DNA of 64,000 nucleotides from Morchella semilibera (lineage: Eukaryota > Ascomycota > Pezizomycetes > Pezizales > Morchellaceae): the NCBI GenBank assembly GCA_009192285.1, contig WBVU01000017.1:558001-622000 (forward strand), read 5' to 3'. Positions 490-52,733 of this stretch are shown piece by piece. The notes beneath the pieces were generated by a model that saw only the letters and a program-made list of their open reading frames with translations, searched no databases and was not told the origin of the DNA. The position numbers and the translations under genes were made by a program. Within the stretch, counting starts at the first letter, position 1. Every line of letters begins with the position of its first letter.

Positions 490-1061
490 TGTTGGCTTTC
501 ATCCCAGCCAAAAATAACCTGAATTATAGTGATCTGCATATGCGTTTGTATTGCTGGCCAGCATTTTCTTACCTCATTAATCCAAAAAAGTCCAAAAATA
601 TCTACTGGTGCCATCGCATCCTGTTCTACTCATAGTCAGTAATGATATCCAAATTTATTCAACCACTTGTACCCGGACCCCCACCCATTTGGCCATGGCT
701 AAATAAATAAACTTAAGAAATGTTCTTACCTCTAAGAACAATGATTCCGCATCATGGTAAATCATAGGTAAAGTCATATAGTATGGCTTTCTATTAGCAA
801 CAGAAGCTGCTCGCAAGCAACCTGCTCTGGTTCCTTCACTTATATTTTCTCTCCTTCCTCTTGATCTGCACAATCTTCCTAATACAGATCAAGATGTTTG
901 TACTAGCGGCCTTACTGATGTTTGTTGAAACTCTCTTTAAAGGTGCCCGCTGATCTCGTGTTATCAATATCACCTGCATTTATCAGAACTGTACTCCAAT
1001 GATGAAAACAGTGAATAGTACTCACGCATAGCTTGAAATTTGAACCCAAATCTATATAGTA

Positions 1062-1140
1062 CTACAATACAGTGTGTCTCAAAAATACTGAGACATATAC
1101 TAAGACATATATTGAGACCGGTTGGTAGTTGTATTGTAGG
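1062..1140. repeat. Small fold-back in Helitron 5' region
   Basis: The words CTACAATAC (about 1062) and GTATTGTAG (about 1131) form inverted arms. Between them are repeated words of the type ATACTGAGACATA / ATATTGAGACC, similar in style to fungal Tc1 terminal repeats. It may be a tiny degenerate MITE. No target duplication was established. Confidence 0.35.
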
Positions 1141-1322
1141 ATGACTAAGCAGAGGGCCAGGGGGCGGAAAAAAGCGGTTTTGAGTGGTACAAGGTAGGGT
1201 AACACATGCAAGCAGTTGTAAATAGTTATAATTAGCCGTTTTGACCCCGCAGAAGATACAACAGCCCGCAACCAAATCTTCAAATTTTTTACTTGTATTT
1301 ACCAATTATTAAAGCAACAAAG

Positions 1323-4300
1323 ATGTCTACTGCAAGGTGTTCAGTGTGTCGACGTGATAAAGTTCTTGCAGAATTTGATTTGAACTGCAATGGAGTTATG
1401 TTTAGATCATGCAGGAACTATCCGGTAATTGCGACTTGATACATATTTGAATATTTACTTAACTAACACTTTACCGCAAAGAACAGCTGAAATGCGACGA
1501 AGACGTGCAGTTGCACAACGGCAGCAAGTTGAAAATCAACAGGTATATATTGCCACATTCTAGAGGGAATATTGGTTTAATTGTAAACTTATTGTTTTGA
1601 ATAGCTGTCACCTCCAAGAGCTGCACGTTTCTCACACCCAATTTTTCCCTATGCATTTGTTAGTTCACGTTTGCAATGGCGTCCATTGGTGTTGGGCGCA
1701 ATGAACATCTCTTGCGAGTCATGCGGAGTATTGCATTGGATTGACGAACGAGTATCAGCGAGCTCAAGAGTCAAGCCCCACTTTGAAAGTTGTTGCAAGA
1801 AAGGAGATGTTCAACTACCCGCTTTGCGAGAGTCTCCTCCATATCTACAATACCTTTTACAATCCTTGGACACTGTTGCGAGACAATTCCGTACGAATAT
1901 CCGAGGATACAGCTCTGCGCTCGCATTCACGTCGGTCAGGTATACTGCTGATCAACGTCCTGCCATACAAGGTGGTGGTATTCATTGCTTTCAAATTCAC
2001 GGTGAACTCTACCATATGCAAAGACCATTACATCCACAGGAAAATGCTACCCCATGTTTCGCACAATTGTATTTTTACGACCCTGCCTACACAGCCAATT
2101 TACGATACGAATCACATCTTAGCCTTAATCTTGAGGTATTGCAACGTCTTACAGCTGAGTTACATGAGGTTAATCCTTTTATAACTATATACAAAACTTT
2201 ACGTGAGCGATTCGATGATGCAGAACGAATGCGGGAACCTGCAAGAGTTTTGCTCAACCTGCAATTGCAGTTGATAATAGAATCAGGTGCTGATAAACAT
2301 CGCAACAACTTGCCAACCAGTAATGAAGTTGCTGTAATCATACCTGATGAGTATGAGGCAGCTGGGTTTCAGGATATTATTCTTGCAAACCGTGACGCAG
2401 ATGGTAATGCAGCATTTAGCAGAATCGAACCAAATAATGCTGCATATATGCCTTTGCATTATGTTTCTATTTCCATTTGGTGTTGCAGGTTGGCATTGGG
2501 GTTTGAGGTTACGAGATGATTTGCAGGTTCGCAAGATTTTACGCCTTAGTCAACGGGTATTTTACAGGTATAATTTATGATTTACAAATAATGCATAATT
2601 GTAAAGGGCTAACTCATATATTAGATATTGTTTGCATATACATCCAATGGAGTTCCCTACGCTTTTTCATTCCCAACGCCTCCTACAATAATATTTGGTC
2701 GATGCATGGTCTGTTTGCGATCATAACAAATTCAACTAGATTCGATTGAACCAAGCGCAATTACGTGCAGACTTATATAATGGTCTCGCAGATGCTTTGC
2801 TACAGCAGGACTTTAATGCGGAGGAAACCGGCAAACGTATAATACTCTCAAGCAGTTATACTGGCAGTGACCGATATATGCAACGGTTGTATCAAGATTC
2901 TATGGCAATTGTTTGTCATTTTGGACGCCCCACTTTGTTTATCACGTTTACAGCAAATCCAAAGTGGCCTGAGATCGTTGCAGAATTGCTTTCAGGACAA
3001 ACAGTTGTTGATCGGCCAGACCTTACTGCAAGAGTTTTTCATATGAAGCAACAACAGCTCCTTGCTGAAATCAAGCACAAAAATATATTTGGGCGCTATT
3101 TGGGTTGTGTATGGACAATTGAATACTAAAAACACGGTTTACCTCATATGCATCTGTTGCTTTTCTTGCATCTAAAAGACAAGTTTATTACAGCGGATCG
3201 CATCGATGAAATAGTATGTGCAGGGTTACCGGATCCTATTGCGGACCCAAATGGAGAGTTGCGAGGGGTTATAACGAGCTGTATGGTACATGGACCCTGT
3301 GGAGAAGCAATGCCAAATGCTACATGCATGTCAAGATCGGATGCAGGCTATTTTAAGTGTGCAAAACGGTTCCCAAAAGAATATCAAACTGAAACTATTG
3401 TACAGGAGGATGGATATTCTTTTTATCATCGTCGCAATGATGGAAAAACCCATATAATACCATTGCGAGGTTCCGGTGGAAATGCGACATTCTCCTTTGA
3501 TAATCGCTGGGTTGTACCATACAATCCATATCTCTCTTGGCGTTACAAAGCACACATTAATGTCGAGGTCTGTACTTCCATTCATGCAATCAAATATATA
3601 CACAAGTATATATATAAAGGATCAGATCGTACCGCTCTGCAGGTTGGCAATGAAGTTGATGAAGTCAAACGATATTTGCAAGGTCGTTACATTGGGGCAA
3701 CAGAAGCTGTGTGGATGATTTTTGAGTATGCAATGCATGAGGAGGCTCCTGCTGTCATGCATCTAGCGGTACATATGCCTGGTGAACAGGCAGTATATTA
3801 CGATGCAGATGCAAACCGTGATGAGATTCTGCAAAGAATGGAGTCTGCAAAATCAACATTTATGGCGTTCTTCCAGTACAATTTGGAAAATATTGATGGT
3901 CATCTATATCTCTATCAAGAGTTTCCAACTCATTTCACATACAGCAAACCTACCCGCAGATGGTCGTGAAGGAAGGCTGGGGTTTCAATTGGACGCATGT
4001 ACTATTGCAATCCTATGATGGGTGAAAAATATTACCTACAGCTGTTACTTACAGTTGTGAGAGGTGCAAAGTCATTTGAACATTTGCGAACAGTCTCCAG
4101 TACATTGCATCCAACATTTAAGTCTGCATGTATGGCTCTTGGTCTTCTACAAGATGATAGAGAGTGGACCCAGTGTTTTACTGAAGCAGTGTTAGTTGCA
4201 ACGAGATATGCACTAAGAACATTGTTTGCAACTGTCCTACTATTTGGTGATGTTACAGACCCTGCAGCACTTTGGACAGAGTTTGCAACGAACATCTGTG

Positions 4301-5937
4301 ATGATTTACCTCGCACAATCGAAAGAAATGAAGCATTGGCTGTTCCGGCTGACATGCAAGACCCGCATCTTGATTACAGTCTCTCTTTGATATCCCAAAT
4401 CCTTGCGGATTCAAGCAAAACACTGGCAGATTTTGCATTACCTCCATATATTCACGATTGGAACCGCAACGCTGGGAATGAAATGATTGCAGCAGAACTC
4501 AGTTACGATCAACAGTCAGAACAGTTATTGTGTGATGAGAGAGTTACAAAACTTAATGATGACTAGTTGCGGTGCTACAATGCTATCGTAACAGGTGTTA
4601 CAAATCCTGCAACAGCACAGTTCTTCCTGCAAGGGCCTGCTGGAACAAGAAAAACATTCCTCTACAATACGATATGCAACCACTTCCGATCGCAAGGAAA
4701 GATTGTTCTTTGCGTCGCATCTTCTGGCATTGCCGCGCAACTGCTACTTGGTGGCAGGACCTCACACTCACGTTTCAAAACACCAATTGTTATCAATGAA
4801 TTTTCTACCTATGCAATTACTCGCAATACGTTACTTGTGGGATTACTACAGCCCGCAAACCTGATTATTTGGAATGAGGTTCCTATGCAACACAAATATT
4901 GTTTTGAGTCTGTAAATAGATCACTCAATGATATTTGCGGTGTTGGAGATGATGCATTGTTTGGCAATATACCGATTATTTTAGGTGGCGATTTTGCACA
5001 AATTCTACTGATTGTGAGACGTGGTAATCGTGGTGGAACAGTAGAGGCATGTTTGCAAAGATTCTTTCTATGGAACCGGTTTCAACAACTTCCTTTATGG
5101 ACCAATATGCAAGTACGCGAAGGTGAAGCAAATCAACAATTTGCGAGGTGGCTTTTGCAAATGTCATATGATCGTCAGTGGCATGGTCGGATCTCATTGC
5201 CTCGATTCATCCAAGTTTGCACAAACGTACCAGATCTTTGCGAACATGTATTTCCTGCGGTAATAATTGCGTCAGCGCATACCAATCATACGGTTTTTAA
5301 GGGACGTGCAATACTTGCAATTTGAAATGATACAGTTGCGGAGTTTAACAATACAGTTCTCAACTTGAATGCCCTGCAAGGGGAGGTTCAAACATACTAT
5401 TCTGTCGATAGCATGGATTTCAACAATTCGGAAGAGGCATCAAACGAACTCCCTGCAGAGTATTTACAAAACTTAAACCCAGCTGCATTGCCACCATCAC
5501 ACTTGCGACTCAAAGTTGGTGCTCCTGTTATATTGTTGCGAAACCTGTATCCAAAGCAAGGCCATTGCAACTGGATGAGAATGACTGTAACCAGGATGGA
5601 AGGACGTTGCATTGAGGTTAGGATATTGGGTGGTGATAACGATGGACAAGTGAAAGTTATTCCTCGCATTAAGCTTTCAAGTACTGAAAGAGAGTTGCCA
5701 TTCATTTTAACGCGAAAGCAATTTCCTGTAAGGCTATGCTTTGCGATGACTGTAAACAAGGCGCAAGGACAATCACTGGATGTTGTAGGAGTGGATTTAC
5801 GGACACCGCCATTTACTCATAGGTAATTATTTGTTGCGTTATCAAGAGCAACAGATGTAAATAGATTGCGAGTCTTGCAAACAGAGGAAAGAGGGAGAGA
5901 AACTGATAATATAGTATATCCAGAGGTACTATTGTAG
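1323..5937 (+). pseudogene. Helitron Rep/helicase (RepHel), disabled
   Basis: Decayed Helitron transposase combining a HUH-type Rep nuclease and a PIF1-like helicase. The 5' part appears to contain short introns (about 1432-1489 and 1543-1604; donor GTATAT, acceptor AATAG for the second). A Helitron-like N-terminal domain is read at 1671-2465, then a frameshift. The Rep region at 2746-3969 has FITFTANPKWPEI, the HUH core PHMHLLLFL directly after a TAA stop at 3127, and the two-tyrosine motif YIHKYIYKG near 3600. Frameshift near 3965, stop TAG at 4564, helicase from 4567. The Walker A is GPAGTRKT instead of GPAGTGKT and the Walker B is IIWNEVPM instead of IIWDEVPM, so ATPase activity should be lost. 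A TGA follows at 5323 and a break at 5824 just before the terminal FVALSRATDV motif. Family assignment is secure; the element is not autonomous. Confidence 0.9.
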
Positions 5938-6167
5938 GATACCTAATATGCTAGAATGATTATAGCTTAAAGGTCTAATGTATAATGGTAGCAACGTTTT
6001 ACAATATGTCATTGATAGTTGCAAATACAAATACAGGTATGCGTTACCCTGCAATAACATCAACCCTTATTGCAAGGACTTTAAGATATATGCAAGTGTT
6101 GTAAATATAATGCAATCTCATTCCCAACCCCCGCAAACGTTTACAATGAAATAATGACTAAATACAT

Positions 6168-6972
6168 TTAATCTTCCATATCTTGCATAATTTCCTCAAT
6201 TGCATCAGCTATATCCTCAACTGCCTTCAATAATTTACCCCATTTTTCCTTAACAGAGAGGCACTTTCTTTTTGTAACCCTCCTGCGCCTATTTGAAAGC
6301 TCTGTAGGCTATGTAGAAGTGCTTGCAGTTGCAACAGAACGTTCGCGAAACTTAGACTCTATTGCAAACATTAGCAACACATTGTAAACCCATTGCAAGC
6401 ATTGCAAATCACTTACCAGGCCGGAAACTGCATTGTTTGCCTTGACTGTTATAGTGGCAGTTGGTACAGCTACCCGCAAATTTGCCATCTACAATTACAC
6501 AATCTAGGAAAGGACCCTTGCCATCTGCACAGGTTACACACTCAGGTCCCTCAATCTCACCTCTGCTGTATCCTAAAATAGCCTCAACATTAATAGGCCT
6601 AGCCATATTAAGGCCCCTGTCATCCCTTAAGAGAACAGGCTTAACCCATTCCATATTGACTAACTTTTTAGCAGTTGCAGTAGTGGTTGCACCCCCCTGT
6701 ACTAGAGCCTCTGCAGTTGAATCATGCTGGATTGGGCGGATTTTTGCTTGCCGAGTCTTGGCGGTCTTGGCAATCTCGGCAGGTTGCTTGTCTTTATTGA
6801 GTTTAGGGACAATTTCTACCTCAGACTCAAAGCTAGGCTCTTCTGGGGGGACTAGGGGCTTGGCGGTCTTGGCAGCCTGAGTCTCGGCAGCAGGCATGGT
6901 AGGGAGTCTTTTCTGGACTGCATTAGAGGCAGCAGGAGCAGGAGTAGGAACTTCAGGAGCAGGAGAGGACAT
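6168..6972 (-). pseudogene. DUF3716-like Cys-rich protein gene inside Helitron 1
   Basis: Starts at the ATG at 6972 and lies antiparallel between the helicase and the Helitron 3' end. Exon 1 (6972-6417) has a low-complexity Ala/Pro/Lys-rich N-terminus of about 100 residues, then a compact Cys domain: RPINVEAILGYSRG, CVTC, GPFLDC, GSCTNC and QCSF, six cysteines plausibly binding zinc. This resembles the fungal DUF3716 pattern from memory, not a search. The exon ends in a good donor (GTAAGT); a 58-bp intron (6416-6359) has a GCTAATG branch point and CAATAG acceptor. Exon 2 reads in frame to a TAG at 6309-6311, but coding continues beyond it to TAA at 6168-6170 with a KRKCL motif and an acidic coiled-coil-like tail. 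The paralogue at 11635-12209 has the same tail, so the TAG is most likely a lesion. Function unknown. Confidence 0.65.
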
Positions 6973-7180
6973 GATTAAAAAAACCAGGAAATTCTGAGAG
7001 GAGGCAATGTTTGGGAGAAGGAAATCTGGATGATGATTCAAAAAAATGCGGAAATTCTAGCCCTATTTATCTCTTTTTTCTAGGTCTTCAAATTATCTTT
7101 GCAAATGCCAAAGTTATTTTTGCAACTGTCTGTACCATTTTTGTAATCATTCAATCCTTTACGCGCGCGTAGCAAAACCA

Positions 7181-7270
7181 GCTACCAAACCCACCCGCTA
7201 CCAAACCCACCCGCTACCAAATCCACTACCAAACCCACTACCAAACCCACCCAAACTCCACTACCATACC
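7181..7270. repeat. CTACCAAACCCAC minisatellite
   Basis: Tandem, slightly irregular repeats of the unit CTACCAAACCCAC(CCG), six to seven copies. It lies directly inside the Helitron 3' hairpin, so it belongs to the element's 3' end. Confidence 0.85.
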
Positions 7271-7276
7271 AGGCAC

Positions 7277-7306
7277 CCTCGCGGTCGCGAGGTGGCCCAC
7301 TGCTAG
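7277..7306 (+). other. Helitron 3' terminus (hairpin + CTAG)
   Basis: A perfect palindrome CCTCGCG-GT-CGCGAGG (7277-7292) is followed by 10 nt and then CTAG, with T at 7307. Helitron 3' ends have a short GC-rich hairpin 10-15 nt before CTRR. This fixes one end of Helitron 1 and places the Cys-rich gene inside it. Confidence 0.85.
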
Positions 7307-8290
7307 TAATACTAGTACTCTAGGTTGGGTACCCATTGTTCTGTTAAGGTATCTGGGTCAACCTGAGTGGGAGGTTTAGCTGGCAGGGGTGGGACGGTCA
7401 ATGTCACGAATTTGAGAATTTCATGCGTCCAAGAGATAGACTTGAAAACTGTTGTATCCCAATTAATGACCGAGTGATATATCATGATTATCATACCTCC
7501 GAGTGATATTCTGTGATTAATAATCTCTTCCCGGTGAAAGCGAAACGTTTCAAACTTAGACTATACTTTCTATTAGAGATTCGTCTAATAAGCAGCTTAG
7601 TTTGAATAGCCGTTGCGGACCCTGATGTGGGCGCCTCTGGTAAGTAGTTAGTTTGGTTTTTCTTTTTTTTTTTCTTAACAAGACGTGTATAACATTATTT
7701 ACTATTATACTACCATTATAGGCCTGAACTTATGAGTCACTCACTACGGAACTCTTGGTTGACTATGCCTACGTTCTATAAGCATTTCTACTGTGGCTCT
7801 GGGGGACCCTAGGTTGTGGTCGATGGGGCTCGTGGCTCGCGGTATACTTGGAGGTGTTGTAGGGTGATAGGAATACGGCAGTGGCTTGAAAGTCCGTAAT
7901 CGGGGCTATGACCCAGCAGGCAAGAACGCCATGCTTATAATCCACAAGGCCAGGAGCCCAAGGACACTATCTGCTAGAATAAGGCCAGCAGAGTCGAGAT
8001 GACTCGAGGAATACCTCCTTAAGCGTCCTCGTGGAACACACTTCTCGGACCCTCAAGACAATTTACCTCTAGTTTTAGAGGTTATAGGGAAAAGTGGATT
8101 TTATCTCTCTTCTCACCCCGTGTTGCTGATGAGCTATTCAGTGGGATCTATAGTCCTCACTGGATTTGACCGGGTAAACCTTCAACGCCTCTTGTGTGTC
8201 TAAAGGCATAAGTACACGACTATATTTTTAGACATTGGTATCATATCATACAATCATTCACGCCACCAGGCTTGAGAGCCGATTTGATAT
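7307..8290. other. Intergenic, no gene seen
   Basis: No conserved reading frame, tRNA or rRNA recognised. The only notable texture is a T-rich run near 7665-7675. Confidence 0.5.
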
Positions 8291-11597: not shown

Positions 11598-11634
11598 AAC
11601 CTGCTAAGACTCTGCCACGCGAAGCCGCACCGCC

Positions 11635-12209
11635 GTGTCAAGCCTTGCCGAGTCCGATGAGTCAGCTGGCCCCTCCCTACCAGTTAAATCCTATAACCTA
11701 CAGGTAATTGAGGCTATGGTTGAGAATAACATTTTCACTACTAATAACTTTAAAAGATTATTGGTATTAAATAAGATTAATGAGGTATTGTTTAGGGGGG
11801 AGAAGAATTTTAACCTTCAGAGGCCAGTTAATATTCAGGCTATTTTGGGTTGCTCTAGGGGTAAAGCTCAGTGGTATAAGTGTGAATCATATGAGGAGGG
11901 TAATGGACTCTTTGATACATGTATTATTGTGGAGGGGTTTTTTCAAGGCAGTTGCACCAACTGTGACTATAGAAGCAAGGGTGTAAGTGTAGTTTACGCC
12001 CTACGCCAGGGGTAAAGTGTGGCGGAAGGAGAGTTAGTAAGGTGCAAGATGATGAGGAGCCTGTTGGTAGAAGTGCAGAAGGTGTAAAAAGAAAGTGTTT
12101 GAGATTAGGAGAGAAATTTGCTAGGATTGCTGAATTTGATAAGCAAATCAGTCTGTTGATGAAGTTGAGAGCTGAGGTTATGGAGGGGATTGCTGAGGAA
12201 ATGGAGTAA
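11635..12209 (+). pseudogene. DUF3716-like gene, second copy (Helitron 2)
   Basis: Paralogue of the gene at 6168-6972. The frame 11635-11980 contains RPVNIQAILGCSRG, a degraded first CxxC (CESY), GLFDTC and GSCTNC. A single-base change near 11981 shifts the frame; in the next frame CKCSLRP restores the final cysteine of the domain and reading continues without a stop to TAA at 12207-12209 through KRKCL and an acidic, coiled-coil-like tail matching gene 1. No intron is needed here. There is no credible ATG: the frame opens with GTG just after a MITE. The Helitron 2 helicase pieces lie downstream on the opposite strand, the same relative layout as in Helitron 1. Confidence 0.65.
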
Positions 12210-12375
12210 ATGTATGTAAATAGTTTACATTGGTATTGGAGTTGATTACACTTTCTACTTTATAATTTGCACCTGCTACGCTGAGTACCAATACTTGACG
12301 ATTGGTCTACGCTGGCGTAAATGTAAAAATGATTATAGATTAAGTGTAGTTTTGACTTTATATATTTAAAGTTAT

Positions 12376-12719
12376 TGTTCCGGCATCTTGGCATTAGTCC
12401 CGAGGGTTCGGTAGTCGAAGTGTTGTTATGATTGTTAAGGTATTGCTAAGCGAGGAAGGGGTGTGTAACGAAGTAACCCGACGCAAAGTAGAAGATGACA
12501 ATGATGACGCAGAAGGACTTGAGGAGCACAGCCCATACGACGAGGAGACCGACGAGGACAGGGACAATACCGGGCAGGCACAAGCACAAGGACCGGCAAA
12601 GGCAAAGGCAAAGGCAAGGGCACAAGAACGCAGAGTAGAGAGAGTAAGGGCCGGATAGACCTCAATGAGAATGATGAGAGGTACTATAGTTGTTCCTCTT
12701 CAGAAGACAGAGTTTTTTA
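12376..12719. mobile_element. Family A LTR fragments joined head to head
   Basis: The first about 90 bp of a plus-strand family A LTR (from 12376) run directly into the inverted 3' end of another copy (12465-12719; GAAGTAACCCGACGC and onward). The second fragment is cut at 12720 by a MITE. Open frames here are translations of GC-rich LTR repeats, not genes. Confidence 0.7.
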
Positions 12720-12820
12720 CATCAGCAAACTCAACTTGTGACTGGAGTCTCCCAACAGTCTTCCGTGTCTCCTGAGAGTTTCCTGAGAACCCTGGATATT
12801 TTTTGAGTCTCATGAGACTC
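12720..12820. mobile_element. MITE, CATCAGCAA family (truncated by LTR)
   Basis: Starts with CATCAGCAAACTC and stops at 12820 where a family A LTR begins. The remaining about 35 bp are missing. Confidence 0.8.
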
Positions 12821-13450
12821 TGTCCCGGCGTCTTGGCATTTGTCCTGACAGTTCGGTAGGCGATGCACGGTTGTGGTTGTTAGGGTAATGTTAGGCGAGA
12901 GTGGGGAGTGCGAGGTGGAGGTTGTCGTCATTGGGTTCTGGGAGGTTCGATGGCGTGATGGATTGGTAATGTAGAATAGCGAAGATGGTGGGGAGGATTA
13001 CGAGGTGTGGTAGCGACGGGTTTCTATGAGGTTCTATGAGCAAAAGTGTGAGTCATAGCGGACTAGTGGAGGAGGTGTGTTAAATAGCGGGGATAGATGT
13101 TTTCCTTAGTTCTTTCTTTCTTTTCTCTCTGTCTCGTCTTCCTGTTATCTCAGTACATAGGAATCCACTCCTATTCTCAAACCATAGCTCCACGTACCCA
13201 AGATCCTGTCCTCTAAAGAGGAAAACCATAGTACCTCTCATCGTTCCCGTTGAGGTCCATTCGGTCCTCACTCCCCCTACCCTGTGCTCTTGTGTCCTTG
13301 CCCTTACCTTTGCCTTCGCCGGTGCCTGTGCTTGTGCCTGCCGGTGTCACCTTTGTCTTCGTCGTTCTCCTCGTCGCTTAGGCTGTGCTCCTCGGGTTCT
13401 TCTGCGTCATCATTGTCATCTTCTTCTTTGCGTCAGGTTACTCCGTCACA
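12821..13450 (+). mobile_element. Solo LTR, family A
   Basis: Complete 630-bp copy from TGTCCCGGCG to ACTCCGTCACA. Flanking pentamers (GACTC left, TAATC right) do not match, suggesting rearrangement after insertion. Contains the family's CTTTG/CTTGC-rich 3' segment. Confidence 0.85.
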
Positions 13451-13504
13451 TAATCCAACCCTGCTGCTATCATGTTGTTACCTTCTGTACGCCCCCAATC
13501 ATAG

Positions 13505-14990
13505 GTGTAAGGAGGCAGGTTAAAGTCCGAGAGTGTTTTACCAGAATCAGCCAAAATCTGGGAGATGAGATAGAGGCCATAATCTAGATGTGGATCTTGT
13601 AGTCTATCTGGAATAAGTAGCGCTTCATGACGCTCAAGCGCATGAGAAAGATCATCACATATGTTGGTTCAAAAGTGTTGCCAAATGTGTATTAAGATCT
13701 GTTACATCACCAAAAAGGAGTGTAGTCGCAAATAGGGTTCTGGGAGAGGTACCACACAAAAATACTGACGGTTCTGTAAAATATTGTAGCCACTCTTGAT
13801 CATCCTCCAATAATCCAAGTGCAAAACATGCACCTTTAAAGGTTGAGTGTAAAAGTCCTTCCACCATGTGTAAATGTTCAAATGACGTTGCATCTTTGAC
13901 AATAGTGAGTAGCAGGCGTAAGTAATATTTTTCACCCATTATAGTATTGCAATGATAGATTCTACCAATTGCAACACCCTTTTTCTTAGGTGACTATTTT
14001 CGCGCTTGCTGATTGTGTAGGTGGGGAACTCCTGATAAAGATACTGTCTGCTGTCGGTATTAAGTGTATTGTATTGAAAAAATACCATGAGGGTTCAGCG
14101 CGCTGATTCCATTCTCTGCACCAGTTCCTCTGCGCTTACATCATTGCGAAAGTAAACTGGTTGTTCACATGGTAAGTCTATCGCTAGGTGTATAACTGCC
14201 GGTAGCTCCTCATGCATCCCATGTTCAAACAAACGCCAGGCTGCCTCTGTTGGGCCCCTGTAGATACCTTCACGCTTCATCTGCATCATCTCCAACATGA
14301 AGTGTAGTGCAAACTGATCCCTTGTAAATATATTTATGAATATATTTTACGAACGCTCATCTGCAGTATATTTTACCGATGTAAACGTGAGTGCAGAGTT
14401 GTATTCACGAATATTTGCGCAAAATCTCCTTGCAACAGTATCCAAGGGCTCAAGCAAGTACTGCAAATAAGGTGGTGATGCTTGTAAGAGGTTAAAATAT
14501 ACATCTCCTTTTTTGCAGCAAATCTCAAAGCGTAATGTATTCAAAGAGCTAGCGGAAATACGTTCACAATGCGTTGTAAGAGGTTCAAACTACAGACATT
14601 CTTCCCAGCTCAAGGGGAGCCCAACATAAGTGGGATGAGATGAAAGCAATTGGCTGTATCTGTACAGAAACTCTTACAGCCCGGTAGCGAACCTATTACA
14701 CTTCGTTTAAATCTAGGACTACTTCTATCTGAATCAATAAGTGTAAATCACCTCTGTAGGATTTTTTTGCTCTTGCAAACGTCTTGCTCTTGCTCACACA
14801 TGCCACCGCTCACGCGCAAGTATTTATTACATATTCTGCAATTGGCCTAAATAAGTTGCATTGAGCTTGCACCAACTTTGCCATTCACCAGACATTGCTG
14901 AAAGGATTTACGCAAGTTACCCTAGCAATCTCTAGCGTAATCCTAAGTTGACTTCTCTCTCTTGTAGGTAATGCATTTGATTGATATTGT
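13505..14990 (-). pseudogene. Helitron 2 Rep/helicase remnant
   Basis: Minus-strand fragments collinear with Helitron 1. 14544-14347 matches the N-terminal region (CCKKGDV, SPPYLQYLLEPLDTVARRF), 14298-14095 matches the segment after the tyrosine motif (GPTEAAWRLFEHGMHEE), and 13939-13655 matches the part upstream of the helicase (MGEKYYLRLLLTIVKDATSFEHL). The Rep catalytic core between the first two blocks is deleted and the helicase domain is absent. The divergence indicates a separate family from Helitron 1. The sequence is rich in GTGTAA/GCGTAA words. No Helitron end was identified. Confidence 0.85.
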
Positions 14991-15013: not shown

Positions 15014-15651
15014 TATTCCGGCATCTTGGCATCGGTCCCGGTGGTTTGGTAGTTGCAGCGCTGTTGCAACGGATGGAGTTAGGTTAAGTGAGGATGGGGT
15101 GTGCGAAGGGGAGGTTGTCGTCATTAAGTTTCATAAGGTTCTATGGCGTGATGGATTGGTAATAGGAATTAACGAGATAGTGGGGAGAAATACGAAGTAT
15201 GGTTGCGATGGATTTCCATGAGGTTCTATGAGTAAATGTGTGAGTCATACCGGACTGGTGGGGGGAAAGTGTTAAATAGCGGAGATAGAAGCTTTCCTTA
15301 GTTCTTTATTTCTTTTCTCTCTGTCTCGTCTTCCTGTTATCTCGGTACATAGGAATCTACTCCTATCCTCAAACCACAGCCCCTCGTACCTAAAGACCCT
15401 GTCCTCTAAAAACTTGAAGAGTAAAACTATAGTACCTCTCATCGTTCTCATTGAGGTCCATCTGGTTCTCACCCTCTCTGCTTTGTGCTCTTGTGCTCTT
15501 GCTCTTGCCTTTGCCTTCGCCGGTGCCTGTGCTTGTGCCTGCCGGGGTTACCGTTGTCTTCGTCGGTCTCCTCGTCGCTTAGGCTGTGCACCTCGGGGCC
15601 TTCTGCGTCATCATTGTCATCTTCTTCTTTGTGTCGGATTACTCCGTCACA
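15014..15651 (+). mobile_element. Solo LTR, family A
   Basis: About 638 bp, ending ACTCCGTCACA at 15651. The first bases are diverged (TATTCCGGCATC for TGTCCCGGCGTC). No matching target duplication. Confidence 0.75.
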
Positions 15652-15741
15652 GTAGTGATGGTAAGTTGTTCCCCTACCCTCCCCCCTGTTCTTTTTTTTG
15701 ATTTTGATGGGGCATGCTTACTAAGTGGACTCCTGTCACCT

Positions 15742-16360
15742 TGTCCCGGCGTCTTGGCATCGGTCCCGAAGGTTCGGTGGTCGAATCAATGTTGTGGTTG
15801 TTTGGGTTATGTTAAGTGAGGAGGAGGTATGCTGGGGGGGGTGTCGTTATTGGGTTCTAGGAGGTTCGATGGCGTGATTGATTGGTAATGTAAATAGCGG
15901 AGATGGTGGGGAGGAATACGAGGTGTGGTAGCGATGGGTTTCCATAAGGTTCTATGAGCCAAAGTGTGAGTCATAGCGGACTGGTGGAGGAGACGTGTTA
16001 AATAGCGGGGATAGAGGTTTTCCTTAGTTCTTTCTTTCTTTTCTCAGGCTCTCTGTCTCGTCTTCCTGTTATCTCGGTACATAGGAATCTACTAATATCC
16101 AGCCATAGCTTCTTGTACTCCAGACTTTGTACTCTCGAAAGAAGAAATCCATAGTACCTCTCATTGTTCCCATTGAGGTCCATTCGGTCCTCACTCTCCC
16201 TGCCCTGTGCCCTTGTGCCTTTGCCCTTGCCTTTGCCTTTGCCGGTGCCTGTGCTTGTGCCTGCCCGGTGTTGCCTTTGTCTTCGTCGGTCTCCTCATTG
16301 TCCAGGCTTTGCTCCTCGGGTCCTTCTGCGTCATCATTGTCATCTTCTTCTTTGCGTCGA
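15742..16360 (+). mobile_element. LTR, family A, 3' truncated
   Basis: Begins TGTCCCGGCG at 15742 and follows the family to TTTGCGTCG near 16360, where the last about 15 bp are replaced by unrelated sequence. Confidence 0.75.
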
Positions 16361-31580: not shown

Positions 31581-32171
31581 TGTGAAAGAGTAACCGGACG
31601 CAACGTGACAGATGACAATGATGACGCAGAGGGGCTCGAAGAGCACAGCCAGCACAATGAGGGCACTGACAAAGACAAGAATGGAGCCGGGCGGGCACAA
31701 GTGCAGGCACCGGCAAGGGCAGAGGCAGAGGGCGCAGGGCAAAGAAGGGAAAGCAAGGACCAGGTAAGGCCCCAGACAAGGATCAGAGAACTTGAAACTA
31801 GAGAGGGACCTTCCGCGAAGGCATGTTTGGAAGCGAGGACTATGGCTATGGATAGGAGTATATTCCTACATACCAAGATAACAGGAAAAGTCTTCCCGCG
31901 CTATTTAACACTCTCCTACACTAGCCCGCCATGACTCATACCTTTGTCCATAGAAACCCATAGAAATCCATCTGAACCATACCTAGTATTCCTCCCCATC
32001 GTCTTCTCTAGTTATATTACAAATCCATCACGACATAGAATCCAATAGAACCTAATAATGACACCTCCATCTTGTCACATTCCCCCCTCGCTTAATATTC
32101 CTTCATTACTAGTAGTTACATCAGCGCTTCGACAACCGAACCCTCAGATCCGATGCCAAGATGCTGGGACA
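31581..32171 (-). mobile_element. LTR, family A
   Basis: Inverted copy from TGTGAAAGAGTAACCGG to CTGGGACA. It is preceded by an 11-bp plus-strand LTR start (TGTCCCGACGT, 31570-31580) and followed immediately by another plus-strand copy, giving head-to-head arrangements. Confidence 0.75.
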
Positions 32172-32590
32172 GGCATCTTGTCATTGGTTCTGAGAGCTCA
32201 GTAGTTGCAAGGAGGGGCTGAGGTAAGGTGAAGATTTCATCAATAGGTTCTATTAGTGTCCTGGCGTCTTGGCATTGGTTCTGACAGTTTGACAGTTGTA
32301 GCGCTGTAGTAACTAATGGGGTTATACTAAGCGAGAGAGGGATGAAGTGAGATAAGATTGTCGTCATTGGATTCTATGAGGTTCGATGGTATGATGGATT
32401 TGTAATATAAATGGAAAAGATGGTGGGGAGGAATATGAAGTGTGGGAGTAACAGGTTTTCTGTGAGATTCTATGAATTGAGGTATGAGTCATAGTGTACT
32501 GGCGGAAGAGGGTATTAAATAGCGAGGGAAGACTTTTTCCTTAGTTCTTTTTTTCTTTCCTCTCTATCTCGTCTTCCTGTTATCTTGTTA

Positions 32591-32976
32591 TAGTGCGGCG
32601 CATCTTAAAGGTGACAGCAAATACCGTTGCTAATAACTTTTTATCAAGACATGATATTCAAAATCTGTCTGACAGAAGTGTAGGTCTAGTGATGGTGAAT
32701 ACTTCTATCAGACAGATTTTTGATATTTTCCCTTGTTAAAAAGTTATTAGAGATTGAATTTGCCTGTTTTTGTATGTAAAAAGCGCCAAGACCTGGTGAA
32801 GTGGAACAGTATTATACCCATTTATACCCCTGCACCACAGACCTGCAGCCAAGATTTAGTTCTCAGCCATAATATGGCTGGAATATAAGGCTTCAATTGG
32901 CTCAAGAGCCAATTGGAGTGGCCAAGATTGTTCCAGCTGAAATGCCGGCATGTCACCTTTAAGACGCGCCGCACCA
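32591..32976. mobile_element. TA-flanked MITE with 26-bp TIRs
   Basis: 386 bp. The left terminus TAGTGCGGCGCATCTTAAAG and the inverse of the right terminus TGGTGCGGCGCGTCTTAAAG both continue to GTGACA. TA on both sides indicates Tc1/mariner-type mobilisation. No coding capacity. Confidence 0.88.
32630..32750. repeat. Fold-back nested inside MITE
   Basis: 121 bp with long imperfect inverted arms: CTAATAACTTTTTA and CAAAATCTGTCTGACAGAAG on the left, matched by inverses ending AAAAAGTTATTAG on the right. It could form a strong hairpin; it is either an inserted second MITE or the MITE's own core. Confidence 0.8.
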
Positions 32977-33602
32977 TACATAGAAATATACTCGTATTAT
33001 AGAGCCATAGTTCACTTTATCTTGGAACCTTTCTTCAATAAAACGAGGTAACTCATCGTACATCTCATTGTTTGCATTGAGGTTCATCCGATCCTCACTC
33101 TCCCTGCCAGTGCCTGGTGCCTCTTTTGCCTCCGCCCTTGCCTTTGCCCTCACTGTTGTCTGTGCTTATGTCCACCCGGTATCATCTCATCCTCGTTAGT
33201 GTTCTCATTGTGTTGGCTGTGCTCCTCGAGTCCTGCTTCGTCATCATTGTCATCTGTCATATTGAGCCCGGTTACTCCATCACAATGAGATTCGGTTGCA
33301 GGTAGAATTGTTAATATGTTTTGGTGAGATTGTGGGGAGGAATATGAGGTGTGTTTAGAGCTGATTCCTATGAGTTTCTATAGTCTGACGTATGAGTTAT
33401 ACTGGACTGGCAAAGGAGGATGTTCAATAGCAGACTCTGCCCTCCCCCGCGTCCCTTTTGCTTTTGCCCTTGCCTTTGCCCTTGCCAGTACCTGTGCTTG
33501 TGACCACCCAGTGTCTTCGCTGCTCCTGGCTATGCTACTTGAGTCCTTCTGATTCATCATTGTCATTTGTCACGTTGCGTTTCGGTTACTCCGTCACATA
33601 TT

Positions 33603-41068: not shown

Positions 41069-41665
41069 TATGGTGGAGTACCGGAGCACAATGTTACAGG
41101 TGACAATGATAATGCAGAAGGACTTGAGGTATGCAGCCAGAGAATGCCAGGGTACAGGACGGGCACAAGCATAGGCGCTAACAGGGGCAGAGATAGCAGA
41201 GGCGCAGAACAGAGAGAGTGAAGACCAGATGGACCCCAATGTGAACGATGAGAAATATTATGGTTTTCCTTGTTACTGAAGACAGGTATTGAGGTCACAG
41301 GGATTATGGCTATGGATAGGAGTATATTCCTATGTATCAAAATGACAGGAAGACGAGAGAGAGAAAAGAAAGAAAGAACTAAAGAAAAAATCTCCACTTG
41401 CTATTGAACATTATCCTCCAACAGTTCACTATAACTCATACATCAGGTCATGGAATCTCATAGAAATCCGTTGTTACCACACTTCGTAGTCCTCCCCACC
41501 ATATCCTCACATTCCATTACCAATCCTCCTTGTAACTGAATCCCTTAGAAACTAATTATGACTACCTCACCCCATCTTAACCCATCCTCGCTTAATATAA
41601 CTCCATTGATAATGACACTGCTATCACCACCAAACATTCGGGACTGATGCTAACAGGCCGGGACA
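41069..41665 (-). mobile_element. Solo LTR, family A, in gypsy remnant
   Basis: 597 bp inverted copy ending CCGGGACA, flanked by TGGAG on both sides (41064-41068, 41666-41670). Gypsy sequence resumes on either side. Confidence 0.88.
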
Positions 41666-45721: not shown

Positions 45722-46705
45722 GTCCTAGTATTGTGGCTCTAGTCCCGACGATTCAATAGTCGCAGTGCTATTCTGGTTGATAAGGATATGTTAAGCAAAC
45801 AGGGAATGAGATGAGGTGAGGTTGTCATCATTTGTTTCCATGAGGTCTGGTTGCAGGGAAGTGTCCCGGCGTCTTGGCATCGGGCTCGAGGGTTTGGTGG
45901 TCAAAGCACTGATGTAACTAATGAAGGAACAATAAGCAAGGAGGGTATGCGACAAGTGGTAGTGTGGTCATTAGGTTCTATGGAATTCTATGGCGTGACG
46001 GATTTGTAATATAATTAGAGATAATGGTGGGGGAGAATTACGAGGTGTGGTTGCAATGGATCCCTATGAGTTTCTATGAATGAAGGTATGAGTCATAGCG
46101 GACTGGTGGGGGAGGGTGTTGAATACCGCGGGAGGACTTTTCTTTTAGTTCCTTCCTCCTCTTCCGAGTCTTTCTGTCTCGTTTTTCTGTTACTTTGGTA
46201 CATAAGAATACACTTCCACCCCCAAGCCATAGCTCCTCGCACCCAAAATCTTGTCCTCTTTGGAGGAAATCCATAGCACCTCTTATTGTTCTTGTTGAAG
46301 TCCATCCGGTCCTCACTCTCCCTGCCCTGTGCCCTTTTGCCTCTGCCTTTGCCCTTGCCTTCGCCGGTGCCTGTGCTTGTGCCTGCCCGGTGTTGTTCCT
46401 GTCTTCGTTGGTGTCCTCGTGGCACTGGCTGTGCTCCTCAAGTCCTTCTAGTGATCATTGTCATCTTCTACTTTGCATCGGGTTACTCCGTCACAGAAAA
46501 ATTGATAATGAGATTTACGGAGATGGTGGAGAAGGGTATGAGATTTGGTTACATGGCAGTTTCCATGAGTTTGTATGAACTGATGTATGCATCATATTAG
46601 ATTGGCGGAGGAGGGTGTTAAATAGTCAACGTCGATATTCTTCTTATTTTCTTTCTTTCTTTTCTCTTTGTCTCGTCTTTTTGTTATTTCTTTCCTTAGT
46701 AATAT
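45722..46705 (+). mobile_element. Old family A LTR, left part
   Basis: Diverged LTR (from about 45722), interrupted by a younger family A LTR (45862-46495) and cut at 46705 by a full-length LINE. The rest of the LTR is at 52734-53036. Confidence 0.75.
45862..46495 (+). mobile_element. Solo LTR, family A, nested
   Basis: 634 bp, TGTCCCGGCG to ACTCCGTCACA. Flanking pentamers GGAAG and GAAAA do not match cleanly, although the surrounding sequence is continuous old LTR. Confidence 0.8.
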
Positions 46706-46988
46706 GGAACGCAACCCCACCTCAGGAACTGATTTTTGAAAATAACTCAACAACCAACAGAGATATCATCAAACCGACTTCAGATCCATCATCTCCATCT
46801 CAACTTGCACCTAATCACCAACTCCTGAAATCACAGCTCTTCTTTTGCAGAAGTTGCTGTGAATTTCCGCTTTTTTTTCTGCTATTTTTTACCCCACCTT
46901 GCTGCCAAGCCAGCCTCAAACAAAAACTCTGCCAAACCGCCCTCACCCACCCCACTCAATTCCTAGCGCCACAGCCACTAGCTTCAAC

Positions 46989-48558
46989 ATGTCTGAAGGG
47001 GTTGAGCAATCCCTGCCAGGCATGCCGTCATCCCCTCCCCCTGCACAGTCAGAAGACAGGGATATGGGAGTTAGAGATGACTATAGCATAGCCATGGACA
47101 GAAGCGAACCGGAGGACCATATGGAAGATCCTAGCAGTGATCCTCTAGCCTCTAATGGCCAACAACACAGAATTATACCAACTAAAAGAGTATTATTTCA
47201 ATCTAATGAAAATATTTCTGGAAAAAGACAGGCTCTACCAGGACGTTCTGGTCAGCCTATTTCGTTTGGATCCTCAAACTACATCAATCAACGACTATGG
47301 GACTGCGTTCAGACTCTCACATTGCAGAATACCGAAATCAAAGAACAGAATACCGAAATCAGAGAACAAAATCAACAGCTGATAACTCAGATTCAAGCAT
47401 TACAGACCCTTGTTAACTCAGTCCTTGCCGCCACAAACCAAAACAACAATGAAATGAAGAGCAGATTCGATGCAATGGCTAGATCTATGAAAGCTTCAGC
47501 AATACAGAAAAATATACCACAATCATCAGCCCAGAACGCCACATCAGGCCCGGCAAACTCCAAACCTCAACTCAGCAAGAGAGCTCAAGGAAAGCAACCA
47601 GTCCATTCGAATGAGCATGCTCAACCCGTTCAGCTACAGGAGAAACAGAAGGATACTTGGGCAACTGTGACTAGGAAGGGAACTAGGCAACAGGCCCAAA
47701 TGCTCAAGACACCACTTCCACCAAAACTCCCAGTTACTAAAACTATTATTGTGACTAGGTCAACACCTAAAGATGGGGCACTCAACCTTGTCCAGCTCAG
47801 AAACACCATCAACAGGGATCTCACTATAGCCAAAGCAGACCAAGCTATTCAAATAGGCGGAGCAAGTTGGAATCAGAGGGGGAATCTTATGCTCTTCAGC
47901 AAAGGAGCATTCACTGAGACTCAATTCGCTGATTATAAAACGAACATTGAAAAAGCTATGAAAGAGGTTGATCCTAGTGTTGTATCCATCGCAATGCAAG
48001 AAACATGGTTCAAGCTTGCAGTACACGGCATCAATCTCGAACACTATCCTGACAACGCTCAAGGAATGGAGGACCTGAGAAGCGAAATCCACGAACTCAA
48101 TACCGGAGTCACTCTAGCTACCACACCTAGATATATGACACATCCCGAAAAGAGAGTAGGAAAATCTCACAGCTCAGTTATGATTGCCGTCAGTAACAAG
48201 TCATCATACAATGCCATGCTCTCTAGGGGGATCCGAATCTTCGGACAAGTACACAGAGCCACTGAGTACCATACATCAAGACCAACAGACCCAATGCAAG
48301 AACTGTCAGAAATTTGGACACAACTGGCAGAGATGCGCAACCAAGGATAGCCCTGTGTGCTCTATCTGTGCTGCCGGACATACCAGTCAAAACCATCTCT
48401 GCCCTCAATGCAAGGTTCAGAGCAAGAGCTGTCCTCACTTCCCACCAAAATGCGCCAATTGCGAAGGACAACACCCAGCCTATGATCCTTCATGCCCTGT
48501 CAGAAACTCTATCATCCAACGCCTAAACAACGAAGACAATGAACAGGAGATGCTATGA
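46989..48558 (+). pseudogene. LINE ORF1 (gag-like, zinc knuckles), one frameshift
   Basis: RNA-binding protein of the LINE. Starts at ATG 46989 (MSEGVEQSLPGMP). A Gln/Asn-rich coiled coil with an 8-residue repeat (QNTEIKEQ, QNTEIREQ) is near 47320-47370, then a conserved domain (TIIVTRSTPKDGALNLVQLRN..). Between about 48245 and 48290 the frame shifts; the next frame carries CKNCQKFGHNWQRC, then CSICAAGHTSQNHLC and CANCEGQHPAYDPSC, three CCHC-type knuckles, to TGA at 48556. It overlaps ORF2 by 20 nt. Confidence 0.88.
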
Positions 48559-51500
48559 TGGGACACAACCTAATCCTCACAGAGTGCGAATTATTCAACA
48601 TAACTGCGCAAGATCACAAAACTGCATGATTGGATTGCTGCACTCAGTCTATGAGACAGCAGACATAGTTATAATTCAGGAACCTTTTGTTATGCCTGGC
48701 GTAATTGCAGGTTCCTGGACATCAATATCACACCCCTCCTTCGATAGTATCATTCCCACATCAGATCGACCACCAAGAACACTCACCTTCACCATCAAGA
48801 CACACCTCAATCCCCACCTCATTATTCAACCTAAACCAGATATCGTCAACGATCCAGACCTACAAGCAATAGAGATATCAACCCCCTCAATACCTGCCCT
48901 AACCCTCTTTAACATTTATAATGAAGATCCACCTGGACACAGCAATGAACCCTATACGGTGGAGAGAGTATTGGTTAATATTCAACTCCCTACAAGAACA
49001 ATTATAGCTGGAGACCTCAACTCGCATCATCCATGGTGGAACTCAGCAAACCGTACACCCAAACGCCATGAAGCATTGGTTCAACTCCTGGAAACTGGAA
49101 ACTTCACTCTCATCAACGAACCAGACATCCCAACCTACCACTATAGAACTGGCACTGGCACCTCAGTTTTAGACTTAGCTTTTGCATCTACAGCGGTCAA
49201 CACACTACCTTCCAATTGGGCTATTGATGAAGAAGCAGCAACAGGATCAGATCATGAAGTAATTCGATTTGATCTTGTATCTGATTCAATTGAATCAGTA
49301 CCTCCCCCTTCAACTGAACGGTTCAACTGGGATAAAGCAGATTGGGAATCCTTTCAAACAACGCTTAGAGATCTCTCCCTGAACTCAGCCTTTCGATGGA
49401 ATTTCCTTCATTCTCATCCAAATGAACAAAACCTAGAAGCAGGAGCAATCCTACTTCTGGAACTTATAACCACAGCAGCTGAACGTAATGTTCCTATCAG
49501 GAAATCTTCTCCTCGATCTAAACCATGGTGGAGTGGGGAGATCACAGAACATAGACGGCATATGAAGAGTGCTTTAAGAGAATGGAAGTTGGAAAGGTCT
49601 CCAATGATGCATCAAAGATTCAGATCGCACAGATCAGAATACTTCAAATGCATCAGGAGAGCTAAAGAGTCCCATTGGAACAGCTTCCTTGAGAACGCTC
49701 AAGGAAAAGACATATTCACAGCCTTCAGATTCACTAAACCCAGAAAAACGGAACGTACACCACCACTCAACAATGTTACAACTGGAGAAACTGCCACTAC
49801 ATTTGCAGAAAAAGCCAATCTATACAGAGCTGCTCTCTTCCCACCTCCCCCTATCTCACCTCAAAGGGACATCCAAACGCAGGGAGACAGAATACCATGG
49901 AAGGACCTGACGGATGATGAAATCAAGAGGGCGATTATGACTTCATCTCCCAATAAAGCTCCAGGGCCAGATGGGATCAACTTCAAATGCATTCAACAAG
50001 CATACCTAGCGATACCTCACCACTTCAACTCATTTTATAAAGCAACCATGACCGCTGGCTATCACCCACACATTTGGAGAGAAGCCACTGTTGTTATTAT
50101 AAAAAAGCCCAACAAACCAGACTATTCGATTCCAAAAGCATATAGGCCAGTCTCCTTGCTTAATTGCTTAGGCAAGGTACTGGAAAAGATAATGGCTTCA
50201 AGACTTGCATACCTAGCGGAGAGATACAATCTACTCCACCACTGGCAGATTGGAGGAAGACCAAAGAGATCCGCTGTGGATGCCTGTATGCTGGTAGCAA
50301 GCATAGTGGATGAAGCGAAGAGAAAAGGAATGGTCGTTTCAGCACTGTTTATGGATGTCAAAGGGGCATTTGACAATGTATCCAAGGACAGACTCATACA
50401 TACAGCGAAAGAAAAACGCCTACCCGCTCAAATAGTCAGATGGATAGACAACCTCCTAAGCAACAGGAAAGCTTCGCTAGCCTTTGATGGACAACAAGAA
50501 CCTATGTCAATGATAGCAACAGGAATTCCACAGGGAAGCCCAACATCACCAATTCTTTTTCTTCTTTACTTATCACCACTCTTCGATATTCTTCAACGCC
50601 ACTTTCCTCATCAACAAATATCAAGCTATATTGATGATATTGGCATGATAATGGTGGGGAAAGATGAGAGCTCGAACTGCAGACACTTGGAAAGAATGGC
50701 ACAGCTAGCTGTCACATGGGGTGAAGCCAATGCTCTGGCATTCGACAACCCCAAAACAGAACTACTTCACTTCCACAACAAACGCACTACAAACACTACG
50801 GATACAGCCAAGGTCAGAATGCCTGATGGTACTCTGGTTGAGGTAGCGATACACTGAGATGGTTGGGTGTTTGGTTTGATAGAAAGCTATCTTTCAAACA
50901 TCATGTCAAAACTAAAGCGGCTTCAGCTATGAGGGCATTTCTTGCACTCGCCAGGTTAGGAAATACAGAGAAAGGGCTGAGCCAAACAGCTCTCAGACAA
51001 CTCTATCAGACCTGCGTCACTACAATCAGCGATTTTGGTGCAGAGGTTTGGTGGAATGGACAGATAGGATACAAAACACAGCTTCAGAAGATACAAAATA
51101 ATGCGATGAGAAGGATCACTGGTGCTTTCAGAACAACACCAATATCAGCACTCCAAGCAGAAACTGCACTACTACCCATAGAGATCAGGCTTGACCTCCA
51201 ACAACAGAAATATGCTCTACGCATTCTAAGCATGCCGGCCACCCACCCTATTAGCACCTTCAGCCCGGATTCATTTCCAAGTACACAGGAATCAGGAAGA
51301 GAGGAAGAACCCACAGCTACCCCATGGCACTCTGCTGGTGCTAGGCCACAGTACCAATCCAGACTACACCGGATCCTAAACAAAGTCAGCGATTGGATTC
51401 AACCTCAAAGTCTGGTGGAGGACATAGATACAATTGCCTGTCCCCCATGGCATCAGAACATCATTGACATACAAATTGATACAGCGGATAAAGATACAGC

Positions 51501-52522
51501 AGCACAAAACCATAGACAAACAACTCAAGACAATTACAACAACTTACACCGTTTGGTATTCTATTCTGATGGATTCCTAATGGAAGGAAAAGCTGGGGCT
51601 GGAGTCGTTGGCATTAGAGGCAACGAAATAGTGGTGGAGCAATTCTACCACCTTGGAAAAGAGGTCGAAGTCTTTGATTGCGAACTCTACGCAATAGCTC
51701 AAGCTACACAGCTTGCCCGGAAGGAGATCAGAAATTCACGATACTCCACAGATGATGTCTGGATCTTTTCAGACAACCAGGCGCGATACGGAGAATGAAA
51801 AAACCGGAAGCATTCCCAGGCCAACATTGGGTTCAACTAGCAAGATCGAACCTCTTGGAACTTGAAGCACTAAACATCAAAACACATATCCACTGGGTAC
51901 CAGGACATGTGGAGGTGGATGGCAATGAACATGCAGACAGGTTGGCAAAAAGAGGGGCACAGGGTGAAAGGGTCGAACCAGATGCAAGGGTATCAATCAC
52001 CCACTTGAAGAGGAAAATCAAGGAGCACTCTATGGCTACGTGGAGAGAGAACTGGAAAACTATGAAGAAAGGAAGGAGCTACAGAGGTGCTCCTTCCTCC
52101 AAGATGTCTGCACCCCTTCGTCAAAACATACCAAGGAAACTTGCAAGCACAATTACCCAAATGCAAACGGGTCATGGATACACCAAATCCTACCTATCAG
52201 AATACCAACAACAAATATAGATACAGCGGAATGCAGGTGTGGATACTTCCAGGAAACCCCAAAGTACCTGCTACTTTACTGCAAACAACATCCACTACCA
52301 GAACTCAGAAAAGATCTTACCGCCACAATCAAACCAATGCCACTCAACTGGATGACCGCCATGCATATAGATAAAGGACTTCAGGCAACCATCGATACAT
52401 TTCTTCTACCATCCCAGATTGCCACTAGAAACTGGACAATAGGGGAGAGGGATGGAGATAGAGGGGAGCACGTAGGATGGGGGAGACTTGAGGAAGAAGA
52501 AGAAAGGGAAGGAGAAGGATAG
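48539..52522 (+). pseudogene. LINE ORF2: endonuclease, RT, RNase H
   Basis: Starts at ATG 48539 (MNRRCYDG). APE-type endonuclease: QEPFV, AGDLNSHHPWW, GSDHEVIRF. Reverse transcriptase about 49950-50700: AYRPVSLLNCLGK, FMDVKGAFDNV, GIPQGSPTSPILF and the catalytic YIDD. Three one-base lesions: near 50855 (before RWLGVWFDRKLSF), near 51781 (after FSDNQA; other copies have an extra base here) and near 52185 (before RIPTTNIDTA). RNase H: FYSDGFLMEGKAGAG, CELYAIAQA, WVPGHVEVDGNEHAD. C-terminal Cys motif CRCGYFQETPKYLLLYC. The domain set EN-RT-RNH fits the Tad1/I-group LINEs of fungi. Confidence 0.92.
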
Positions 52523-52733
52523 TCACCAAGGTGCTTGCACCTATCGTTATGAGCTGGAATGGAGAGGACAACATGCATGATAACCTTGAAAGAGGGTTGA
52601 TAGGAACACGGCCGTGAGGAGGATTCGCTTTATGAAAGATAGTATATGACCGTGATGATTGGGTTCTTTCTTTGTATGCCATATCCGGATTCGGATGCAA
52701 GCAGTATGAGTAATAAATAAATAAATAAATAAA

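Follow-up and report, generated by a model that had tools for sequence, protein, structure and literature searches.

A decayed Helitron of Morchella semilibera with an antisense DUF3716 gene between RepHel and the 3′ terminus, probably carried as lineage-specific cargo

Introduction

Helitrons that carry genes besides RepHel have been described in fungi and in plants. The HELPO1 Helitrons of Pleurotus ostreatus possess one to four cap genes downstream of RepHel, several of them of unknown function; in the accessible portions of that report, capA, capA2, capB and capC are given no conserved domain, the cap genes encoding viral-type domains are described as confined to Helitrons, and capB also lies beside RepHel in other basidiomycetes (PMC4289320, Castanera et al. 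2014). In Fusarium oxysporum, FoHeli3 comprises an extra open reading frame on the opposite strand that the available text reports from Helitrons only, and the same source names plant Helitrons with RPA genes (PMC5148889, Chellapan et al. 2016). A preliminary description of the locus analysed here had held that fungal Helitrons are as a rule reported to contain RepHel alone, a generalisation that HELPO1 and FoHeli3, as far as the accessible text describes them, contradict. The locus belongs to the ascomycete Morchella semilibera and is located in a stretch of 64,000 nucleotides, hereafter the window (assembly GCA_009192285.1, contig WBVU01000017.1, positions 558,001 to 622,000 of the forward strand; C14:558001-622000 in the contig labels used below). 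There, a Helitron of 6,256 bp holds, antisense to its RepHel gene, a gene encoding a DUF3716 domain (PF12511).

As for the domain itself, the accessible text of a study of two Colletotrichum species contains a passing mention of PF12511, in a strain-specific gene (PMC5225507). In the open-access literature searched, from which most subscription journals are excluded, no paper with the word DUF3716 and no description of the domain on Helitrons were found. With a probability of roughly 0.6, we read the window element as a dead canonical Helitron of a lineage called B here, whose DUF3716 gene occupies the variable stretch that separates RepHel from the 3′ hairpin, was acquired once and is lineage-specific cargo.

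Termini and extent of the element

Genome-wide searches covered 56.76 Mb in 23 contigs (C labels). The site counts are inflated, as the contig pairs C9/C10, C12/C13 and C21/C22 give matches at nearly equal places, which suggests that two haplotypes or duplicates are represented there.

The 3′ terminus is formed by a hairpin on the forward strand (CCTCGC-GGTC-GCGAGG, 7277..7292), read from the letters and by folding, a 10-nt spacer (7293-7302) and a CTAG of the CTRR type (7303..7306), T7307 being outside the element. This is the terminus first proposed, and an insertion on contig C16 matches it up to CTAG and the following T before diverging. The fold alone is unexceptional (-8.7 kcal/mol, with 10 of 200 shuffles equally good in DNA folding). 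The hairpin core is kept genome-wide: the 20-mer CTCGCGGTCGCGAGGTGGCC reports 189 sites at ≤3 mismatches, against 3 for a reversed-pattern control. Places are given for the first 100 of these 189 and, among the matches listed, 12 are exact, namely nine downstream of the lineage-A RepHels discussed below, the window, C16 and C1:2730863. The terminus reads CTAG followed by T in five of six copies (window, C16, C8, C20, C2:4829k and C1:4368k) and CTAA followed by T in the other. Within the window, the 3′ hairpin returns no further match.

At the other end, the 5′ terminus TCTATATAGTACTACAATAC (1051..1070, forward strand) is the sole match of the window at ≤3 mismatches. Elsewhere in the genome it has 3 exact and 12 one-mismatch sites, 4 of the 12 on C22 mirroring four on C21. 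In an alignment of the window with five near-exact sites, the first 16 bases do not vary and a few more are common, while flanks and interiors are unlike, which is the pattern expected of a Helitron left end. Given these repeated near-exact ends with differing flanks, the element is best read, from its letters and their genome repeats, as 1051..7306, inserted between A1050 and T7307 (A1050, then TC...CTAG7306, then T); a start at 601, assumed initially, was dropped in favour of the repeated end at 1051. The copy at C5:591250 is followed 241 nt downstream, at 591491, by a 3′ hairpin of the same type.

The features of canonical Helitrons (Helitron1) are present: a 5′ TC between A and T, a CTRR end with a hairpin 10-12 nt upstream, and, in broken form, Rep together with a PIF1-type helicase. 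In the alignment of six 5′ copies, TC is preceded by A three times, by T twice and by G once, hence A is not strict. Compared with Helitron2 and Helentrons, which have asymmetric terminal inverted repeats and insert at TTTT|T/C or TT, the window ends as read from the letters look canonical, yet two of the six 5′ copies show T before TC.

The RepHel and DUF3716 genes

The RepHel gene spans 1323..5937 on the forward strand and was delineated by Pfam, a genome-wide PF14214 profile and comparison with an intact relative. It comprises a likely Cys-rich first exon from 1323 (start codon and first exons assigned by eye), Helitron_like_N at about 2617-3162, a PIF1 helicase within 4567-5325 and a 2B domain within 5326-5826. 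The PF14214 match (E 5.6e-56) has three stops inside, and PF05970 is matched at E 4e-57. The frame is collinear with an intact relative of 1128 residues over ~2734-5934 (67% nucleotide identity, sampled every 120 nt) and contains five in-frame stops (3127, 3967, 4564, 5323 and 5824), four of which oppose CAA or CGT of the relative and one AGG. Moreover, GTRKT and WNE stand where the relative has GTGKT and WDE, which we take to be Walker A and Walker B. In view of the five stops the gene is, judged on its reading frame, dead, and the element incapable of producing its own full RepHel.

Downstream of RepHel and on the reverse strand, DUF3716 gene 1 covers 6168..6972 (complement(6168..6301,6417..6972); 229 residues), as assigned by a scan of open reading frames and acceptors, spliced translation and PF12511. 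Its exon 1 (6972-6417) and exon 2 (6301-6168) are separated by a predicted intron of 115 nt (6416-6302; GTAAGT...CAG), alternative acceptors yielding shorter ends. A version of the gene broken by a TAG relied on an earlier acceptor and is unneeded, since the acceptor of the 115-nt intron leaves the frame open to the tail. Pfam analysis reports PF12511 over positions 1-59 of 59 (E 2.1e-16; score 60 bits, curated cut-off 22), so that both the antisense gene and its suspected DUF3716 identity are upheld. The C-terminus of the product is basic and ends with an acidic tail. An AlphaFold model of the exon-1 protein, built on four alignment rows, reaches a mean predicted local distance difference test score (pLDDT) of 45.6. 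The DUF3716 profile returns 0 matches among PDB sequences at E up to 1, and a scan of viral contigs gave 52 pattern matches with no relative among them.

The C16 insertion and selection on gene 1

The gene is bracketed by the 5′ and 3′ ends, and the C16 insertion shares the start of the gene together with the terminus, in agreement with the initial view that the gene lies inside the Helitron. Blastn aligns C16 with 6706-7238 at 82% identity and with 7233-7307 at 91%; the copy carries a short repeat inserted near its end and diverges directly past CTAG and T. It keeps the first 89 codons of gene 1, the upstream region and the terminus, which therefore moved together at least one more time. In this copy ATA replaces the start codon, a deletion has removed ten bases, and the remainder of the gene, including the DUF3716 domain, as well as RepHel have been lost. 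The presence of the gene in independent insertions, suggested as a check, thus holds for these 89 codons and does not extend to the nine RepHel-bearing relatives whose hairpin core is identical, in which no DUF3716 was matched.

Over 85 gap-free codons, gene 1 and C16 differ by 13 synonymous, 32 non-synonymous and 3 stop changes, when random placement of the same changes expects 14.8, 31.9 and 1.4, respectively. The two diverge more within the gene (48/257 sites) than upstream of it (30/335), and 45 of the 48 gene changes are transitions. Purifying selection, the second check proposed, is accordingly not seen in this lone pair with a pseudogene, which covers 85 codons of the gene start, outside the domain.

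Lineage-A relatives

Nine RepHel copies constitute lineage A (three on C1, two on C2 and one each on C8, C19, C20 and C23). They are 66-72% identical to a 279-residue probe from the window RepHel (for the C23 copy, the second piece reaches 62%), and four of the nine have open RepHel frames of 1114-1128 residues. The exact hairpin 20-mer is found downstream of RepHel in all nine, at 2719-2909 nt from the probe in eight copies and 3385 in one, as compared with 3312 in the window. The genome-wide PF12511 profile search, the counts of which are lower bounds, returns no match in any of the nine. The tails of four of them (C8, C20, C2:4825k and C1:4371k) were read: they extend ~820 nt past the RepHel stop, with five intron-like stretches and no long open reading frame after splicing. 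A broken tenth relative at C2:4010k (55% identity to the probe, nearer to A) is likewise without a match in the profile search. An accessory gene would be expected in the majority, if not all, of the autonomous relatives; DUF3716 is found in none of the nine lineage-A copies and beside the two lineage-B RepHels. This distribution suggests that the segment between RepHel and hairpin is exchangeable among Helitrons sharing one hairpin, being a non-coding tail in some and an antisense gene in others.

Two further features of lineage A deserve mention. The intron-like stretches (in the tails L076, L077, L078 and L079, about 4930-5441 of the joined stretches) occur in all four copies as five in a row, ~113 nt apart, starting with GTA.GT (GTATAT for one in C8), containing CTAAC or CTAAT and ending with AG. 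Introns past a stop codon can mark an mRNA for decay, and these stretches may limit the transposase in lineage A. Besides, the copies L019, L021, L022 and L028/L047 are 91-96% identical from one exon onward and almost unalike upstream of about base 510-560, as if their 5′ parts had been exchanged.

The second element and the RepHel tree

A RepHel 2 remnant (13450..14530, reverse strand), identified by blastn, tblastn and the tree, represents a sister lineage of the window RepHel. Its segment 14530-14353 corresponds to window 1781-1958 and 14347-13461 to 3592-4495. It is devoid of the inner part and the helicase half, and spans approximately residues 361-654 of the relative plus a short upstream piece. 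Downstream of it, on the opposite strand and convergent with it, DUF3716 gene 2 (11608..12209, forward strand) has lost its 5′ end and contains one frameshift; its PF12511 match (34.8 bits) falls at 11.7-12.0 kb of the window. The second Helitron with a paralogue that had been announced is therefore borne out for the RepHel fragments and the DUF3716 paralogue, in the same order and orientation as RepHel and gene 1, and not as a complete element, for no match to either terminus at ≤3 mismatches lies nearby, RepHel 2 has no helicase half and gene 2 contains a frameshift. Gene 1 and gene 2 have similar tails, which align with a score of 51 (mean of shuffles 22.7; 1 of 2000 shuffles scores as high), and no similar tail was found in the stretch of C2 that was fetched. 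The short matches between the two elements in the sequence separating RepHel from the gene (best 16 nt, E 0.003, wrong relative orientation) were taken as chance.

RepHel 1 and RepHel 2 share 60% protein identity over 283 positions. A tree built from 15 rows (RepHel 1 and 2, the nine lineage-A copies, L057 and a distant outgroup of three) and 294 columns unites them in a clade with support 99/96, and 99/99 under a mixture model. The alternative in which the window RepHel joins A and L057 obtains a p value of 0.025 in the approximately unbiased test (p-AU).

DUF3716 genes elsewhere in the genome

The profile search locates DUF3716 at no fewer than four places, i.e. at least gene 1, gene 2 and a pair on C2. 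This pair is set among ordinary genes, recognised by eye as phospholipase C-like and SRAP-like frames, with no RepHel match in the 19 kb fetched around it, and in one of the two genes the reading frame shifts within the domain. Gene 1 shares 43% identity with a C2 gene, as compared with 41% for gene 2. A giant Helitron enclosing the C2 genes was considered and rejected: the nearest 3′ hairpin among those found, C2:2306507, is ~10 kb off, and no 5′ end at ≤4 mismatches occurs in the 19.7 kb read. By eye, that hairpin more probably belongs to a short decayed element.

Origin and role of the gene

By analogy with known Helitrons, RepHel would start at the 5′ TC, peel one strand and halt at the hairpin and CTAG; the DUF3716 gene and its upstream region, which adjoin the 3′ terminus, would thereby be copied with the element. 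Gene 1 would descend from a host DUF3716 gene taken up once, in an ancestor of lineage B, at the place held by the non-coding tail in lineage A, and would then have been carried along as cargo of that lineage, probably a passive one. Several points weigh against this reading. The RepHel 2 branch is long and the bootstrap of the mixture-model tree is not fully settled; no terminus with ≤3 mismatches exists near element 2 within the window; and less than 8 kb separates the two linked cases, so that they are not independent places. The DUF3716 quartet groups the Helitron-linked genes weakly (53/31), the other two groupings having p-AU values of 0.286 and 0.421. Finally, the TCTATATAGTACTACAATAC search is noisy, with 33 sites in total against 13 for the reversed control at ≤3 mismatches, and therefore just its near-exact sites carry weight. 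In view of the quartet, host DUF3716 genes may have been captured separately by two related Helitrons and be debris both times, in line with the further genes on C2 and the fragmentary state of element 2. This we regard as unlikely: position, strand and tail are alike in gene 1 and gene 2, and DUF3716 domains are scarce (four found in 56.8 Mb, a lower bound), making two captures by one lineage improbable. That the gene was never mobile, a host gene bracketed by unrelated 5′ and 3′ ends, draws on the 5′ end having been placed from repeats, and is hardly credible given that C16 holds gene start, upstream region and terminus together at 82-91% identity and that the window has no second match to the 3′ hairpin.

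The preliminary description favoured an accessory factor. A true accessory gene, like RPA in plant Helitrons, would have been maintained through selection acting on the element and have aided strand handling or target choice, for example as a zinc-binding adaptor for nucleic acid or protein; this possibility, which overlaps with the cargo reading, is somewhat less remote than that of two captures and still doubtful. It could account for the same place and orientation beside two RepHels that are 60% identical, for the resemblance of the tails, and for gene 1 being open over 229 codons while its own RepHel holds five stops. However, the chance of gene 1 staying open under RepHel-like decay is about 0.5, and for this reason the open frame was discarded as proof of selection. 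The synonymous changes relative to C16 are near the number expected without selection, and changes in the gene exceed those upstream. All nine hairpin-sharing relatives, including the four with an open RepHel, are without a DUF3716 match, and two of at least four DUF3716 loci lie in 19 kb without a RepHel match; the two observations named beforehand as refuting an accessory factor are each partly made here, which leaves that reading weak. RPA-like proteins bind single strands, and we know of no such binding for DUF3716, nor, to our knowledge, has the domain any known function. A bolder proposal, to which we give less credence still, is that of a lasting second gene in a fungal Helitron lineage, transcribed inward from a promoter in the 3′ terminus, in which DUF3716 would bind to nucleic acid or to chromatin while the element transposes by rolling circle. 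If true, it would be the first lead to a role of DUF3716 proteins. As cargo of a Helitron lineage, the preferred reading, DUF3716 gains a testable context.

Surrounding repeats and other mobile elements

A repeat family of ~440-640 bp, with many copies in both orientations, flanks or interrupts both Helitrons of the window (approximate positions 29-462, 12374-13450, 15018-16359, 31581-33600, 41200-41665, 45862-46705, 53211-54155 and 62964-63402). At 46713-52733, endonuclease/reverse-transcriptase-like frames appear LINE-like by eye, and a 97% identical copy of this element adjoins the Helitron remnant on C16. An open frame of 598 residues at 19526-21322 matches DDE_Tnp_1_7 (E 5.4e-54), with a zf-Tnp_2 match just below cut-off, and is presumably of the piggyBac type. 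Elsewhere in the genome, Helitron 3′ hairpins occur as same-strand pairs ~280-550 nt apart (C1:6959229/6959507, C3:2659803/2660104, C19:5498830/5499141 and C23:95206/95758), possibly composite or tandem short Helitrons.

Comparison with known Helitrons

Close counterparts are the lineage-A Helitrons of the same genome (for example C2:4825k, C20:2065k and C8:632k), which resemble the window element in a RepHel protein ~70% identical, an identical 20-nt hairpin core and a CTRR end followed by T, and differ from it by having no DUF3716 match and, in the four tails read, a non-coding tail of ~820 nt. Among the published systems, compared here as far as the accessible text of the reports goes, the plant Helitrons with RPA likewise pair a Helitron with a second gene. 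FoHeli3 shares with the window element an extra open reading frame opposite to the transposase. However, that frame, for which no known domain is given, is situated upstream of the transposase, and the ends of FoHelis are of the Helitron2 type, in contrast to the TC...CTRR ends with one 3′ hairpin observed here. Unlike in HELPO1, DUF3716 also occurs outside Helitrons in this genome, and the window element is dead; as in HELPO1, the additional gene is located downstream of RepHel.

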